From: a virus
DNA length: 23,599 nt
Reading direction: 5' to 3' (one strand)
IMG/VR virus record: IMGVR_UViG_3300025407_000131
Coordinates: 1 to 23,599 of that record
Positions 3,333 to 17,569 of this stretch are shown here, in pieces (positions within the stretch are counted from its first letter, which is position 1; each line of letters opens with the position of its first letter). The translations under genes were made by a program, and so were the position numbers. Below the pieces are notes generated by a model. That model saw only the letters and a program-made list of their open reading frames with translations. It ran no database searches and was not told the origin of the DNA.

Positions 3333-3337
3333 AGCTC

Positions 3338-3700
3338 AACACAGAACCCTGACAGTAATGTGATCGTATTTTCGATCCTCCTTGAGGCTGCACCACCGAT
3401 GAATGCGGCTAGATTCTGGAGTATGCCTGATCGTGAGGTCAGGGAACACCGACAGGGCTCTCGTTAGGTAGGCGAACCCTGAATGAGTCTGTGATATACT
3501 CTGTCTTGAAGTCACAGAACATGCGTTGCAGTGATCACGTATCACACTACAGTCCCAGAAAACTTTACAGGGCAACCGGTAGCGTTCAGCAGCAGTACAC
3601 GCTAGTTGAACGGGGAAAAGACAGCAAAGGATGACGGGCCATGGCAATGTCCAAGTCTAGGTAGTGCCTCTCAGGGGCACTACCATGGCTTCTGAACCGG
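3338..3700 (+). ncRNA. Candidate structured non-coding RNA (no known family recognised)
   Basis: No credible gene lies in this block, which is visibly richer in G+C than its surroundings and full of complementary segments. They include CCCTGAC (3347-3353) with GTCAGGG (3438-3444), enclosing GATCG/CGATC (3362-3366/3373-3377) and GCTGC/GCGGC (3387-3391/3405-3409). Further stems are CAGGG/CCCTG (3453-3457/3477-3481), TCTGTGA/TCACAGA (3488-3494/3512-3518), GTGAT/ATCAC (3531-3535/3541-3545) and CGTTCA/TGAACG (3583-3588/3607-3612). The last is GGTAGTGCC/GGCACTACC (3660-3668/3676-3684), framed by GCCATGG and CCATGGC. The plus strand is preferred because it would be co-transcribed with the gene ending at 3332. 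I see no tRNA, tmRNA, RNase P or group I intron core signatures. It might instead be a replication or recombination site acting as DNA. Confidence 0.35.
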
Positions 3701-3746
3701 CAATGTATATTCCTTATAAGATAAAGTTTTAAACGATTAAAAAGGA

Positions 3747-3796
3747 TATACCGAAACGAACGAAGTGAGTAAAGGTATAAGTTGTCGAAGACAACT
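3747..3796. repeat. Two stacked small hairpins
   Basis: TATACC (3747-3752) pairs with GGTATA (3774-3779), and directly abutting it AGTTGTC (3780-3786) pairs with GACAACT (3790-3796) around a 3-nt loop. Together with the 3818-3865 stem they form a run of hairpins between the convergent ends of the 2775 gene and the minus-strand gp26 unit. A role in ending or stabilising transcripts is plausible but not shown. The remaining bases 3701-3746 are AT-rich with no feature seen. Confidence 0.45.
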
Positions 3797-3817
3797 CTGA
3801 TTGTTTCTGATATGGAA

Positions 3818-3865
3818 ATAGATAGAGTAAACCGAAAAAGAAATGTTAAGGTCTACTCTATCTAT
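3818..3865 (-). terminator. 16-bp hairpin at the 3' end of the gp26 transcript
   Basis: The arms 3818-3833 and 3850-3865 are complementary over 16 positions with a 16-nt loop. Fifteen pairs are Watson-Crick; the odd one is an A-C mismatch if read as plus-strand RNA but a G-U pair as minus-strand RNA, so the structure favours transcription from the minus strand. It begins 7 nt after the stop of the frameshift reading frame at 3873. The loop, not the 3' flank, is T-rich, so it is not a textbook intrinsic terminator and might be a processing or stability element. Confidence 0.5.
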
Positions 3866-3872
3866 GGGTGGA

Positions 3873-4103
3873 TTAGAAGTATGGTAGTTGGGATTTCTTT
3901 GTAACTTCCATGTGTTCTTCAATGATCTTGTTTATCTGCTCTCGCTCAATAGTGGACATATTCAATATATCTTCATATGTCGCGCCACCTCGCATATTCC
4001 ATGCCATGTTTAATGCGGCACTTTTGATAGCAGTAACTTCTTCTTCATAAGATTCAAACAGCTTCTTAATTCTTTCGGGCTTGCCATTAAGAAGCGTTAC
4101 CCG
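3873..4103 (-). CDS. Frameshift extension of gp26-like protein (gp51-position reading frame)
   Basis: This frame encodes 76 residues after the slip site, including a helical stretch with MAWNMRGGATYEDIL and ending TKKSQLPYF. Similar endings are familiar from small proteins next to gp26 in T4-like phages, where T4 itself has gene 51 beside gene 26. Between the last upstream in-frame stop (just before 4130) and the first ATG, deep in the conserved part, there is no ATG, GTG or TTG, so independent initiation is unlikely. The frame is -1 relative to gp26 and is entered exactly at the T_TTT_TTC heptamer (4109-4103). A frameshift would make a 349-residue gp26 fusion as a minority product. The alternative is an unusual start codon or a short 44-aa product from the internal ATG. 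Confidence 0.75.
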   Translation of the reverse strand, partial: RVTLLNGKPERIKKLFESYEEEVTAIKSAALNMAWNMRGGATYEDILNMSTIEREQINKIIEEHMEVTKKSQLPYF

Positions 4104-4954: not shown

Positions 4955-4962
4955 AATAAATA
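4955..4962 (+). promoter_or_regulatory. Late promoter box for the tape-measure gene (AATAAATA)
   Basis: AATAAATA on the plus strand, 57 nt ahead of the ATG at 5019, would start RNA near 4968. The GGTAGGA ribosome-binding site at 5007-5013 is then within a normal leader. It faces the minus-strand copy at 4972-4979. Confidence 0.55.
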
Positions 4963-4971
4963 GTCTTAGAG

Positions 4972-4979
4972 TATTTATT
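4972..4979 (-). promoter_or_regulatory. Late promoter box for gp26 (AATAAATA, minus strand)
   Basis: TATTTATT on the plus strand is AATAAATA on the minus strand, about 50 nt ahead of the gp26 start codon at 4921. With the plus-strand box at 4955-4962 it forms an 8-bp inverted repeat, so the two promoters point toward each other and their transcripts overlap by a few bases. Confidence 0.55.
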
Positions 4980-10312: not shown

Positions 10313-10320
10313 GATAAATA
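10313..10320 (+). promoter_or_regulatory. Late promoter box (GATAAATA) 5 nt before an ATG
   Basis: GATAAATA sits between the gp20 stop and the ATG at 10326. In T4 the RNA start lies about 6 nt beyond the box, that is, at the ATG, so this gene's own mRNA could be leaderless. No Shine-Dalgarno sequence is present. Confidence 0.5.
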
Positions 10321-13306: not shown

Positions 13307-14503
13307 ATGTCAAACGTACTTTTAGAAAGCCGTTGGGGAGAAACTAAGGACGCCCTGCTAGAAGGCTTAAAGGGCACACGTAAGTCAACAATGAACGTGT
13401 TGCTTGAAAATACCAAGAAGCAGCTTCTTGCTGAATCTTCAGCTGGTACTACTACTGCTGGTAACATTGCTACACTCAATCGCGTTATCCTTCCGGTAAT
13501 TCGTCGTGTTATGCCAACTGTTATTGCAAACGAACTCGTCGGCGTTCAGCCAATGACTGGCCCAGTTGGTCAGATTCACACTCTACGTGTTCGCTATGCT
13601 AACTCATTGACTGACAACTCAGCAGCACAGACTTCGGTCAACGCTGGTGAAGAAGCTCTATCACCATTCAAGATCGCACAGGCATACTCACGTACTGCCC
13701 TTGCAGATACTTCAACTAACTACTACACTGGTGCAGATACTGCTGCTCTAGAAGGTAACGGTGGTAAGCAGATTTCTGTTCAGATCCTTCGTCAGGCTGT
13801 TGAAGCCAAGTCACGTAAGCTACAAGCTCGCTGGACTTTCGAAGCTGCTCAGGACGCTCAGTCACAGCATGGTATTGACGTTGAAGCAGAAATCATGGCT
13901 GCTCTAGCACAAGAAATTACTGCTGAAATTGATCAGGAAATCTTGCTTTCACTAGCAACTCTTGCATCAACTGAATACACTTACAACCAGGCAACTGTAT
14001 CAGGTACTGCTACTTACGTTGGTGACGAACACGCTGCTCTTGCTGTTCTTATCAACCGCGTTGCAAACTTGATTGCACAGCGCACTCGTCGTGGTGCAGG
14101 TAACTGGGCTGTTGTTTCACCAGCTTCACTTACTGTTCTTCAGTCAGCAACTACTTCAGCATTCGCACGTACCACTGAAGGCACTTTTGAAGCTCCAACT
14201 AACACTAAGTTCGTTGGTACTTTGAACGGTGCAATGCGCGTATTCGTAAACAGCTACGCTCCAGACACTCAGCCAGTTCTAGTTGGCTATAAGGGTTCAT
14301 CTGAAACTGACGCTGCTGCGTTCTATTGCCCATACATTCCGTTGATGTCTTCAGGCGTTGTCCTTGATCCGACTACTTTCGAGCCAGTCGTATCATTCAT
14401 GACTCGTTATGGTTACATCGAACTAACTAACACCGCATCCTCATTCGGGAATGCCGCCGATTACGTTGGCGAAATTGCGGTCCAAAATTTGACGTTTCAG
14501 TGA
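13307..14503 (+). CDS. 23: gp23 major capsid protein precursor
   Basis: A 398-aa T4-like major capsid protein. The N-terminal ~43 residues form the removable delta domain. The sequence LLAE-SS with the cut after E43 matches the gp21 rule (Leu/Ile-x-Glu), predicting a mature protein of about 355 residues (inference). Then come the conserved VILPVIRRVMPTVIANELVG, QPMTGPVGQIHTLRVRY and a typical C-terminus. It is clearly shorter than T4 gp23 (521 aa) and than most cyanophage versions, suggesting a reduced or missing insertion domain. TTAGGAGAA precedes the ATG. A strong terminator follows. Confidence 0.97.
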   Translation: MSNVLLESRWGETKDALLEGLKGTRKSTMNVLLENTKKQLLAESSAGTTTAGNIATLNRVILPVIRRVMPTVIANELVGVQPMTGPVGQIHTLRVRYANSLTDNSAAQTSVNAGEEALSPFKIAQAYSRTALADTSTNYYTGADTAALEGNGGKQISVQILRQAVEAKSRKLQARWTFEAAQDAQSQHGIDVEAEIMAALAQEITAEIDQEILLSLATLASTEYTYNQATVSGTATYVGDEHAALAVLINRVANLIAQRTRRGAGNWAVVSPASLTVLQSATTSAFARTTEGTFEAPTNTKFVGTLNGAMRVFVNSYAPDTQPVLVGYKGSSETDAAAFYCPYIPLMSSGVVLDPTTFEPVVSFMTRYGYIELTNTASSFGNAADYVGEIAVQNLTFQ

Positions 14504-14544
14504 AATATCAAATACTTACGCAATCAACGCAGTAAGAAAAATGG

Positions 14545-14568
14545 AAAAGGGGCTTTCGGGCCCCTTTT
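14545..14568 (+). terminator. Intrinsic terminator after gp23
   Basis: AAAAGGGGC (14545-14553) pairs with GCCCCTTTT (14560-14568) around a 6-nt loop, giving a G+C-rich stem followed by TTTTCT. It closes the head operon 42 nt after the gp23 stop. The A run on the 5' side makes it partly bidirectional. Confidence 0.9.
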
Positions 14569-14590
14569 CTATTGCGAAAATCCCCAAACT

Positions 14591-14637
14591 ATAGTATTAT
14601 TTATTGAAAAGAGAGGTCTTGGAATAAATAATACTAT
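14591..14637. repeat. Perfect 15-bp inverted repeat spanning late promoter and start of HNH gene
   Basis: ATAGTATTATTTATT (14591-14605) is the exact reverse complement of AATAAATAATACTAT (14623-14637), with a 17-nt spacer. The right arm contains the AATAAATA box and the first two bases of the ATG of the HNH gene; the left arm contains an AATAAATA box on the minus strand. RNA reading through from upstream would bury the start codon in a hairpin, while RNA starting at the internal late box would not. Confidence 0.85.
14623..14630 (+). promoter_or_regulatory. Late promoter box of the HNH gene (AATAAATA)
   Basis: AATAAATA ends 5 nt before the ATG at 14636, within the right arm of the inverted repeat. 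Expected RNA start is at or beside the ATG. The only purine-rich SD-like sequence (GAGAGG) is about 20 nt upstream, too far to serve. Confidence 0.55.
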
Positions 14638-15391
14638 GTTCAAAGAAAACAAATATACTAGGTTATACAACAGTCTCATTGAGAGAGCAACTACTCGCAA
14701 TTGGAATAAAGCCTCTGGCCGTGAAAGGCATCACATTGTTCCTCAGTCATTGGGAGGTAGCAATGATAAATCCAATCTAACTTATCTTTCAGCCCGAGAA
14801 CATTTTATTTGCCATTGGCTCCTAGTTAAGATGACAGAAGGTGAAGCACGAGGAAAAATGCTGTACGCTCTTATGGGAATGAGAGCAATAGGAGACACAC
14901 ACCAAAGATACTCATCATCTATTACGGCTAGAGTATATGAGCGTTATAGGATTGAACACGCTAATAATCATTCCGAAAGAATGAAGGGTAAACCTGCATG
15001 GAATAAAGGACGAAAGTTAGAAGGTGAAGAGCTAGAACAGCACCGAGAACGAACCCGCAACCGAACGATAGATCCTGTTAGACAAGCCGAAGGCCAATCA
15101 AAACGAATAGCAAAAGTAACTGGTACAAAACAAAGTGAGGAAACCAAACTTAAAAAAAGTTTAGCATTGAAGGGTCGTCCCAAAGGCCCAATGAGTGAAG
15201 AACAAAAGTTAAAACGTTCTATGACTATGACAGGGCAGAAGAAGAAACCCGGTCACGCTGACAATGTAAGAAACGCTGTCCTAGGTAATGTATCCATCAA
15301 CAAAGATGGTATTGAGAAGAAAGTCAAACGTGATACACTTGATCAATGGTTGAGTGAAGGATGGGCATTAGGTGGAAGGAAAAGAAAATGA
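14636..15391 (+). CDS. HNH homing endonuclease with NUMOD3-like repeats
   Basis: A 251-aa protein with an intact HNH core: RHHIVP with H32-H33, Asn47 in SNL, and H56/H60 in REHFICH. DNA-binding NUMOD3-like motifs follow (MKGKPAWNKGRKL, KQSEETKLKKSLALKGR, MSEEQKLKRSMTMTG), all Lys/Arg-rich. The C-terminal 45 residues (KKVKRDTLDQWLSEGWALGG) resemble a short module often ending such phage enzymes. It is a free-standing homing gene inserted after the gp23 terminator. Its TGA overlaps the next ATG (ATGA), so it may drive translation of the following genes. Confidence 0.9.
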   Translation: MFKENKYTRLYNSLIERATTRNWNKASGRERHHIVPQSLGGSNDKSNLTYLSAREHFICHWLLVKMTEGEARGKMLYALMGMRAIGDTHQRYSSSITARVYERYRIEHANNHSERMKGKPAWNKGRKLEGEELEQHRERTRNRTIDPVRQAEGQSKRIAKVTGTKQSEETKLKKSLALKGRPKGPMSEEQKLKRSMTMTGQKKKPGHADNVRNAVLGNVSINKDGIEKKVKRDTLDQWLSEGWALGGRKRK

Positions 15392-16228: not shown

Positions 16229-16779
16229 AGATCAGTGAAATGACAATGAGAGGACCAGACCTCTCAAAACAAGCAGAACTATTTGCAAATAAGAATAAAC
16301 ACACCTGGTATAAAAATGGTAAACATGTAGCAGATATAGAAGACTATAAAGTTATCCAACTTGGTAACTATTATTCATTGTGGGATGATACAGCTTTTGT
16401 GGCATGTTGCTCATTAACAAACGATAACATTGTAGATAACGTTTATGTTAGTCCGGACTATAGAGGCAAGAAGATTTTGTCAATGTTATTGTGGTTTTTT
16501 AAGACTAGACTAAATCGTTCTCCCTTAGTATTAGGAAAGGTTCATTCTAAAGATATGCAGGAAGTTGTAAAGGGTCTATCACGATTCAACAAGCACTGGT
16601 ATAACGTGAACACTGGAGAGAAGGAGCCATTTGCATTAGATACGCTGGATAATTACTATAGTCACATAGAGGTTACCCCATGGCGCCTCGTATTGGAAAA
16701 TGCCGGAAACTTCTCGGAGTGGCCATTGTACAATGGTGGCGGATTTGTTATGGAAGCGTATGAACCGTACCTAGACTAA
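16225..16779 (+). CDS. GNAT-like acetyltransferase domain protein
   Basis: In this 184-aa protein the stretch VDNVYVSPDYRGKKILSMLL (residues 70-89) matches GNAT motif A, where beta4 is followed by R-x-x-G/K-x loops that hold acetyl-CoA pyrophosphate. The preceding beta-rich part (YYSLWDDTAFVACCSL) fits strands 2-3. The Q/R-x-x-G-x-G/A loop is imperfect (YRGKKI). Substrate is unknown. The C-terminal ~80 residues are not typical of short GNATs. It overlaps the upstream small frame by ATGA, and a late box for the next gene overlaps its stop. Confidence 0.55.
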   Translation: MKISEMTMRGPDLSKQAELFANKNKHTWYKNGKHVADIEDYKVIQLGNYYSLWDDTAFVACCSLTNDNIVDNVYVSPDYRGKKILSMLLWFFKTRLNRSPLVLGKVHSKDMQEVVKGLSRFNKHWYNVNTGEKEPFALDTLDNYYSHIEVTPWRLVLENAGNFSEWPLYNGGGFVMEAYEPYLD

Positions 16780-17561: not shown

Positions 17562-17569
17562 TATTTATA
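17562..17569 (-). promoter_or_regulatory. Perfect T4 late promoter box TATAAATA (minus strand)
   Basis: The minus-strand sequence TATAAATA matches the T4 late consensus exactly and is followed after only 4 nt by the ATG at 17557. No ribosome-binding site intervenes, so a leaderless message is implied if this promoter is used. Confidence 0.65.

Follow-up and report, generated by a model that had tools for sequence, protein, structure and literature searches.

The window analysed here is a 23.6 kb virus fragment of the T4-related jumbo-phage type. It carries on its plus strand a gene 23 homologue encoding the major head protein (13307..14503; Pfam Gp23, E 4e-98), and the nearest named gene 23 proteins (67–63%) come from jumbo phages related to T4, among them Vibrio phage 2.275.O, PA5oct, 121Q and GAP32. 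Gene 23 is followed by a terminator-like hairpin (14540..14573; 14 nt arms, 93% complementary), which is present in phages with and without a downstream HNH gene, and then by a gene on the same strand for a free-standing HNH homing endonuclease of 251 residues (14636..15391, ATG at 14636-14638). No nucleotide match to the control region between the two genes was found in named phages. Relatives were taken from IMG/VR, where the best 80 of 462 encoded ones were retained, and the HNH gene lies directly after gene 23 in all 80 of these. Elsewhere in the window, a stretch of ~750 nt at 3336-4096 has little coding potential and contains strong inverted repeats at 3653-3691 and 3818-3865, and a homing gene of the GIY-YIG/NUMOD3 type (1918-2736) follows a gp46-like gene.

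The identification of the gene downstream of gene 23 as an HNH homing gene, made in a preliminary description of this DNA, is upheld by a match to phrog_655 (E 1e-37) and by residues H32/H33, N47, H56 and H60, which are invariant in nine relatives. The Pfam HNH match falls just under the cut-off (19.6 vs 21.4), and no solved structure was matched by sequence. Like the T4 mob genes and the phrog_655 homing endonucleases, the protein has an N-terminal HNH region and a NUMOD3-like tail (29% identity to T4 mobE); unlike them, it appears to target the end of gene 23 and has promoters of its own. Its position recalls T4 segD, another free-standing homing gene, which sits immediately behind gene 23 in the gene 23/24 interval; segD is of the GIY-YIG type, lies antisense and has no promoter of its own that could be found (PMC2988022). 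GIY-YIG homing genes are also present at the same place after gene 23 in ten of the compared loci (L088, L094, L095, L121, L127, L133, L134, L137, L141 and L149).

The HNH gene behaves as a mobile gene, in that empty sites exist and the gene 23 ends at occupied sites are altered. In phages without a homing gene there, gene 23 has the stop codon TAA, mostly within TTCCAATAA, whereas at occupied loci it mostly ends in TGA, most often as TTTCAGTGA. A TAA end was found at 12/12 HNH-free vs 10/41 occupied loci (Fisher 2e-6). On the gene 23 tree the presence of the HNH gene changes ~15 times through gains or losses, and an occupied-type end, whether TGA or a CAGTGA in second copy, accompanies the HNH gene in eight of nine independent pairs, with none reversed (P = 0.008). 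At six loci a native TAA end is followed at once by an occupied-type second end, for example AACCTTACGTTCCAATAA-AATTTCACTTTTCAGTGA; in L068, L075-L078 and L046 the tandem gene 23 3′ end lies just behind the stop, with TTCCAATAA followed by CACTTTTCAGTGA. This arrangement would be expected if a cassette with its own gene 23 end had been joined behind the native one, and the tandem second end is likely to be a scar of cassette arrival. A further six occupied loci keep the TAA end without a second copy, so that immunity there would need other changes. In 21/50 free loci gene 23 is followed by the motif GGGATGGGAAG and a second terminator. At occupied loci this old 3′ UTR motif of gene 23 and its terminator stand after the HNH gene in 14/49, and in these never after gene 23. 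The L092 locus, from 4195 onward, has only the tail of an HNH gene, between two terminators behind gene 23, and is a relic of the HNH gene; among the loci that lack a complete homing gene, at a gene 23 identity of at least 90%, it alone has a TGA end. The insertion is thus placed at the gene 23 stop codon, which makes the gene 23 end the likely homing site. In the window the presumed target is formed by the last codons of gene 23, N-L-T-F-Q-stop, at 14481-14503 on the plus strand.

A second sequence of this kind lies upstream of the HNH gene. Read on the minus strand, the block at 14601-14623 is similar to the codons that close gene 23 (AAY-YTN-ACN-TTY-CAR-TRA), and it is flanked by the two promoters described below. 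A scoring matrix was built solely from the gene 23 ends of HNH-free phages. When both strands of the window (~47,000 positions) were scanned with it, the block was the top site (14.5), the end of gene 23 was second (14.1) and the best unrelated site scored 9.6. Upstream of the HNH genes, the best site in 45/45 distinct regions was the minus-strand block beside the promoters, with a mean of 15.5 compared with −1.4 (sd 4.9) for shuffled sequence; these matches were scored at loci chosen by HNH similarity, and relatedness inflates the counts. A stricter matrix, restricted to gene 23 sequences at least 90% identical, placed 37/38 sites on the minus strand, and the same matrix gave a mean of 0.2 and a maximum of 7.6 on regions upstream of gene 23. 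The block is absent at the GIY-YIG genes that occupy the same site (best matrix score 5.9). Among the copies found, that of the window is one of the weaker, matching ~16/18 positions of the degenerate codon consensus and 10/18 of its own gene 23 end.

The block is itself non-coding, yet it is conserved with a three-base periodicity: the equivalents of the first and second codon positions are almost fixed and the third varies. This pattern is the trace expected in an operator for an enzyme that would tolerate synonymous change in its target. The HNH proteins that bear the block share as little as 49% identity. In L036, L046 and L054 the block instead follows the late box and covers the start and the Shine–Dalgarno (SD) sequence, and hence in all arrangements it overlaps the promoter region. 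No likeness to an operator of this kind was found upstream of the HNH genes at this site that are most divergent (L120, L131, L136 and L142-L144). These retain the promoter layout but have a TTGAACTAACTAAC-like conserved block instead, between a TTGACT-type promoter and a late box, and the phages concerned have a differing gene 23 end. The possibility that the block plus late box is a general promoter was rejected: when a degenerate block-plus-box pattern was run over all viral contigs, 49/67 hits fell elsewhere than upstream of this HNH family, mostly in coding DNA.

The block is preceded by a σ70-like promoter on the plus strand (14572..14600), comprising TTGCGA (14572-14577), a 17 bp spacer and TATTAT (14595-14600), with a predicted start at ~14606-14609. 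The consensus match is only 9/12 in the window; closer versions are present in relatives, with TTGACA-N17-TATTAT in L010 and TTGACA-N17-TATAAT in L015 and in L059, a less close relative. In most relatives a good −35 element is absent and the terminator occupies that place. A second, overlapping σ70-like match, TTGAAA-N17-AATAAT at 14604-14632, complicates the promoter reading. Alignment of 32 distinct regions on the ATG places a −10-like hexamer at −39..−34, the block at about −34..−14 and the late box at −13..−6, where the late-box columns are fixed by the selection of rows and the spacing is not so fixed. An A at −27, 7 nt past the consensus −10, is invariant in 32/32 regions. Near-perfect TTGAC(A/T)-N17-TATACT promoters stand before several of the GIY-YIG genes found at this site, which also have CTAAATA at a distance of 13 nt from the ATG and lack the block.

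On the other side of the block lies a T4-type late promoter box, AATAAATA (14623..14630, plus strand), where the preliminary description had located a late promoter. In most of the retained relatives (best 80 of 462) the ATG lies exactly 13 nt from the first base of a TAAATA-type box. In T4 the first base of the 8 bp late box is named −13, and A(−13) is a common variant, found at 9/50 T4 sites (PMC2988020). Because the first base of the box is −13 and the spacing is 13 nt, +1 is predicted to be the A of the HNH ATG, at 14636 in the window, and the late mRNA of this gene should be leaderless. The likeness to T4 late promoters (gp55/gp33/gp45) extends to the TATAAATA-type box at −13..−6, the A(−13) variant and a homologue (41%) of the late sigma factor gp55, which was sought in the genomes of relatives, the window being a 23.6 kb fragment only, and was found in those of L010 and L082. 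It does not extend to the distance from the start codon: here the box lies 12-13 nt from the ATG, whereas in the T4 stretch compared the nearest boxes lie at 20-43 nt, with an SD sequence. Two further late-type boxes, on opposite strands and 9 nt apart, lie at 4955-4979, between a baseplate-hub-like gene (minus strand) and a tape-measure-like gene (plus strand), as in T4 genes 26/51.

The short spacing is shared by other genes. Over the compared loci the distance from box to ATG is bimodal, at either 12-13 nt or ~20-45 nt with few values between. The short-spacing class takes in 54/74 members of the HNH family (at 13 nt), 29/34 of the gp67 family and 10/10 of a 233-aa family, and it also includes a second HNH family and others, unrelated to one another. 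An SD core is present in 4% of short-class genes compared with 67% of the long-spacing class, and the mean anti-SD energy is −0.2 compared with −4.9 kcal/mol. One relative of 360 kb has 13 boxes at precisely this short distance, where permuted hexamers give 0-2; in stretches of T4, PA5oct and GAP32 (~49 kb each) no late box was found at 12-13 nt. Within the window, three other genes have the same layout and lack an SD sequence, with late-type box and ATG at 10313 and 10326 for gp67 (plus strand), at 16775 and 16788 for a 134-aa ART-like gene (plus strand) and at 17569 and 17557 for a second HNH gene (minus strand). It is probable that these three genes are also expressed from leaderless late mRNAs.

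The 66 bp at 14572-14637 probably constitute the control region of a mobile HNH gene whose homing site is the 3′ end of gene 23, and whose enzyme would repress its own expression through a near-copy of that end. This reading draws on the block, the promoter boxes, their spacing, the place of insertion and the link with altered gene 23 ends, all of which are seen in the sequences. In the model that follows from it, binding, repression, cleavage and the transcription starts are predictions. The enzyme would nick or cut the gene 23 end of phages without the HNH gene, and recombination would then copy the cassette in, swapping the gene 23 end for a resistant version. Once expressed, the enzyme would bind the gene 23 target and also the near-copy that lies, on the minus strand, between the σ70-like early/middle promoter and the gp55-type late promoter, and would thereby repress early-type and late transcription of its own gene. 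The self-repression step is modelled on I-TevI of the T4 td intron, whose operator matches the homing site at 15/20 positions and overlaps the enzyme's late promoter (PMC2988022). In both systems a sequence resembling the homing site, itself predicted here, overlaps the enzyme's own promoter. Unlike the present case, I-TevI is a GIY-YIG enzyme of the td intron; here a free-standing HNH enzyme would use an inverted copy of a capsid gene end, placed between early-type and late promoters.

The same stretch had been interpreted in the preliminary description as an RNA switch built on an inverted repeat. The repeat itself is real. Its arms on the plus strand, ATAGTATTATTTATT (14591-14605) and AATAAATAATACTAT (14623-14637), are 100% complementary over 15 bp with a 17 nt loop, and form the longest perfect inverted repeat at such spacing in the window. 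The left arm combines the −10 box with the final 5 nt of the gene-23-like block; the right arm contains the late box and, as had been claimed, overlaps the ATG, reaching its first two bases. Among dinucleotide-shuffled versions of the intergenic region (157 nt), 0/1500 contained a perfect repeat of at least 15 bp, and RNA spanning the repeat gives a fold of −17.8 kcal/mol (z −4.3) in which the AUG is paired. Chance is excluded for random sequence, yet arms that are AT-rich promoter cores have raised odds of being complementary to one another. The proposal that late RNA would lack the left arm fits the predicted +1. Hairpin switches have been described for I-TevI, segB and Aeh1 mobE (PMC2988022, PMC3014915), and the combination of hairpin and late promoter on an HNH homing gene is already known from Aeh1 mobE and I-TevIII (PMC2988022).

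A switch in which the hairpin hides the start codon in upstream RNA, and late RNA from the right arm escapes it, is nevertheless unlikely to be what the region is for. The left arm is found in few of the retained relatives (best 80 of 462) and the right-arm box in nearly all, and the hairpin is neither conserved nor maintained by compensatory changes: left arms are nearly fixed, right arms vary uncompensated (L272, L025), and left arms pair equally well or better with the right arms of other phages. Over 32 distinct regions, own arms paired barely better than swapped ones (P = 0.049), and when the six closest were left out the 26 more distant regions gave no signal (P = 0.86). AUG-covering hairpins can be drawn in L010, L003, L025 and L015, L003 carries one T-A to G-C double change, and swap tests gave 8/120 in the close clade and 14/40320 in a wider set of eight, the rows in both being related; some pairing may thus have been retained in the window's own lineage. 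The system resembles I-TevI, I-TevIII, segB and Aeh1 mobE in that the late promoter lies in the 3′ arm, late RNA would lack the 5′ arm and the stem would cover the initiation region. The resemblance ends there: those hairpins hide an SD sequence in RNA from upstream early or middle promoters. Here GAGAGG ends 19 nt before the AUG, within the loop, and no SD sequence was found ~8 nt before the AUG under cover of the hairpin. The read-through RNA that had been invoked is also difficult to provide: gene 23 is a late gene with a terminator behind it, which sets it apart from td upstream of I-TevI, no upstream early or middle RNA carrying the hairpin is apparent as judged from the sequence only, and early RNA would escape the hairpin because the σ70-like promoter is predicted to start after the left arm. 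A hairpin could form only in RNA that reads through the gene 23 terminator. The differences from the four known systems include the late, terminated upstream gene as well as the lack of conservation. The repeat is best explained as mainly a by-product of two facing AT-rich promoter cores. A decoy start codon upstream, at −16/−17, was considered and dropped, the position of the NTG shifting among relatives.

Other readings accept the block and give it a different role. It is quite unlikely that it binds a transcription factor of the phage or the host, or forms part of an extended late promoter, with a coincidental likeness to the gene 23 end; the fixed distance from block to late box in most relatives and the overlap with the early start would suit such a site, but an independently built matrix ranks the block above ~47,000 window positions, the wobble is codon-like, the likeness is missing both at the GIY-YIG genes and upstream of gene 23, and the position of the cassette together with the changed gene 23 ends points to a gene 23 target. 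That the block is a functionless scar of insertion, as the duplicated gene 23 ends left in some phages might suggest, is very unlikely, given that it is kept beside the promoters in one orientation in all of the distinct relatives, down to the lowest HNH identity seen, the first two codon positions bearing most of the constraint. Pairing at the RNA level, with the block acting as antisense to the gene 23 mRNA end and controlling that mRNA or lengthening the terminator stem, is highly improbable. The block is indeed the reverse complement of the gene 23 end, with a 15-bp perfect match across the terminator in L075-L078; however, the match of a block to the gene 23 end of its own locus (7.9) is poorer than that to the gene 23 ends of other loci (9.0), which is the opposite of co-variation, the occupied gene 23 ends have drifted from the block and no compensatory pairs were seen.

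Self-repression through the near-copy of the gene 23 end thus remains the preferred reading of the control region. The chances are about even for the broader proposal, in which a free-standing endonuclease is self-controlled by a wobble-tolerant, inverted near-copy of a capsid gene end, in phages with two classes of late mRNA, one leaderless and one with an SD-containing leader. A search of largely non-subscription literature found no description of a free-standing homing endonuclease with an operator copy, or of leaderless late mRNAs in T4-related phages. If the proposal is correct, the dual role of I-TevI, cutting a target and repressing its own gene through a near-copy of it, would be extended to free-standing HNH enzymes, and sequence alone would yield both the target and the operator of an uncharacterised enzyme. 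The operator, being non-coding, would show which target positions the enzyme tolerates, information that is normally hard to part from coding constraint. The leaderless late class would in turn be a testable prediction on translation in uncultured jumbo phages and perhaps in their hosts.
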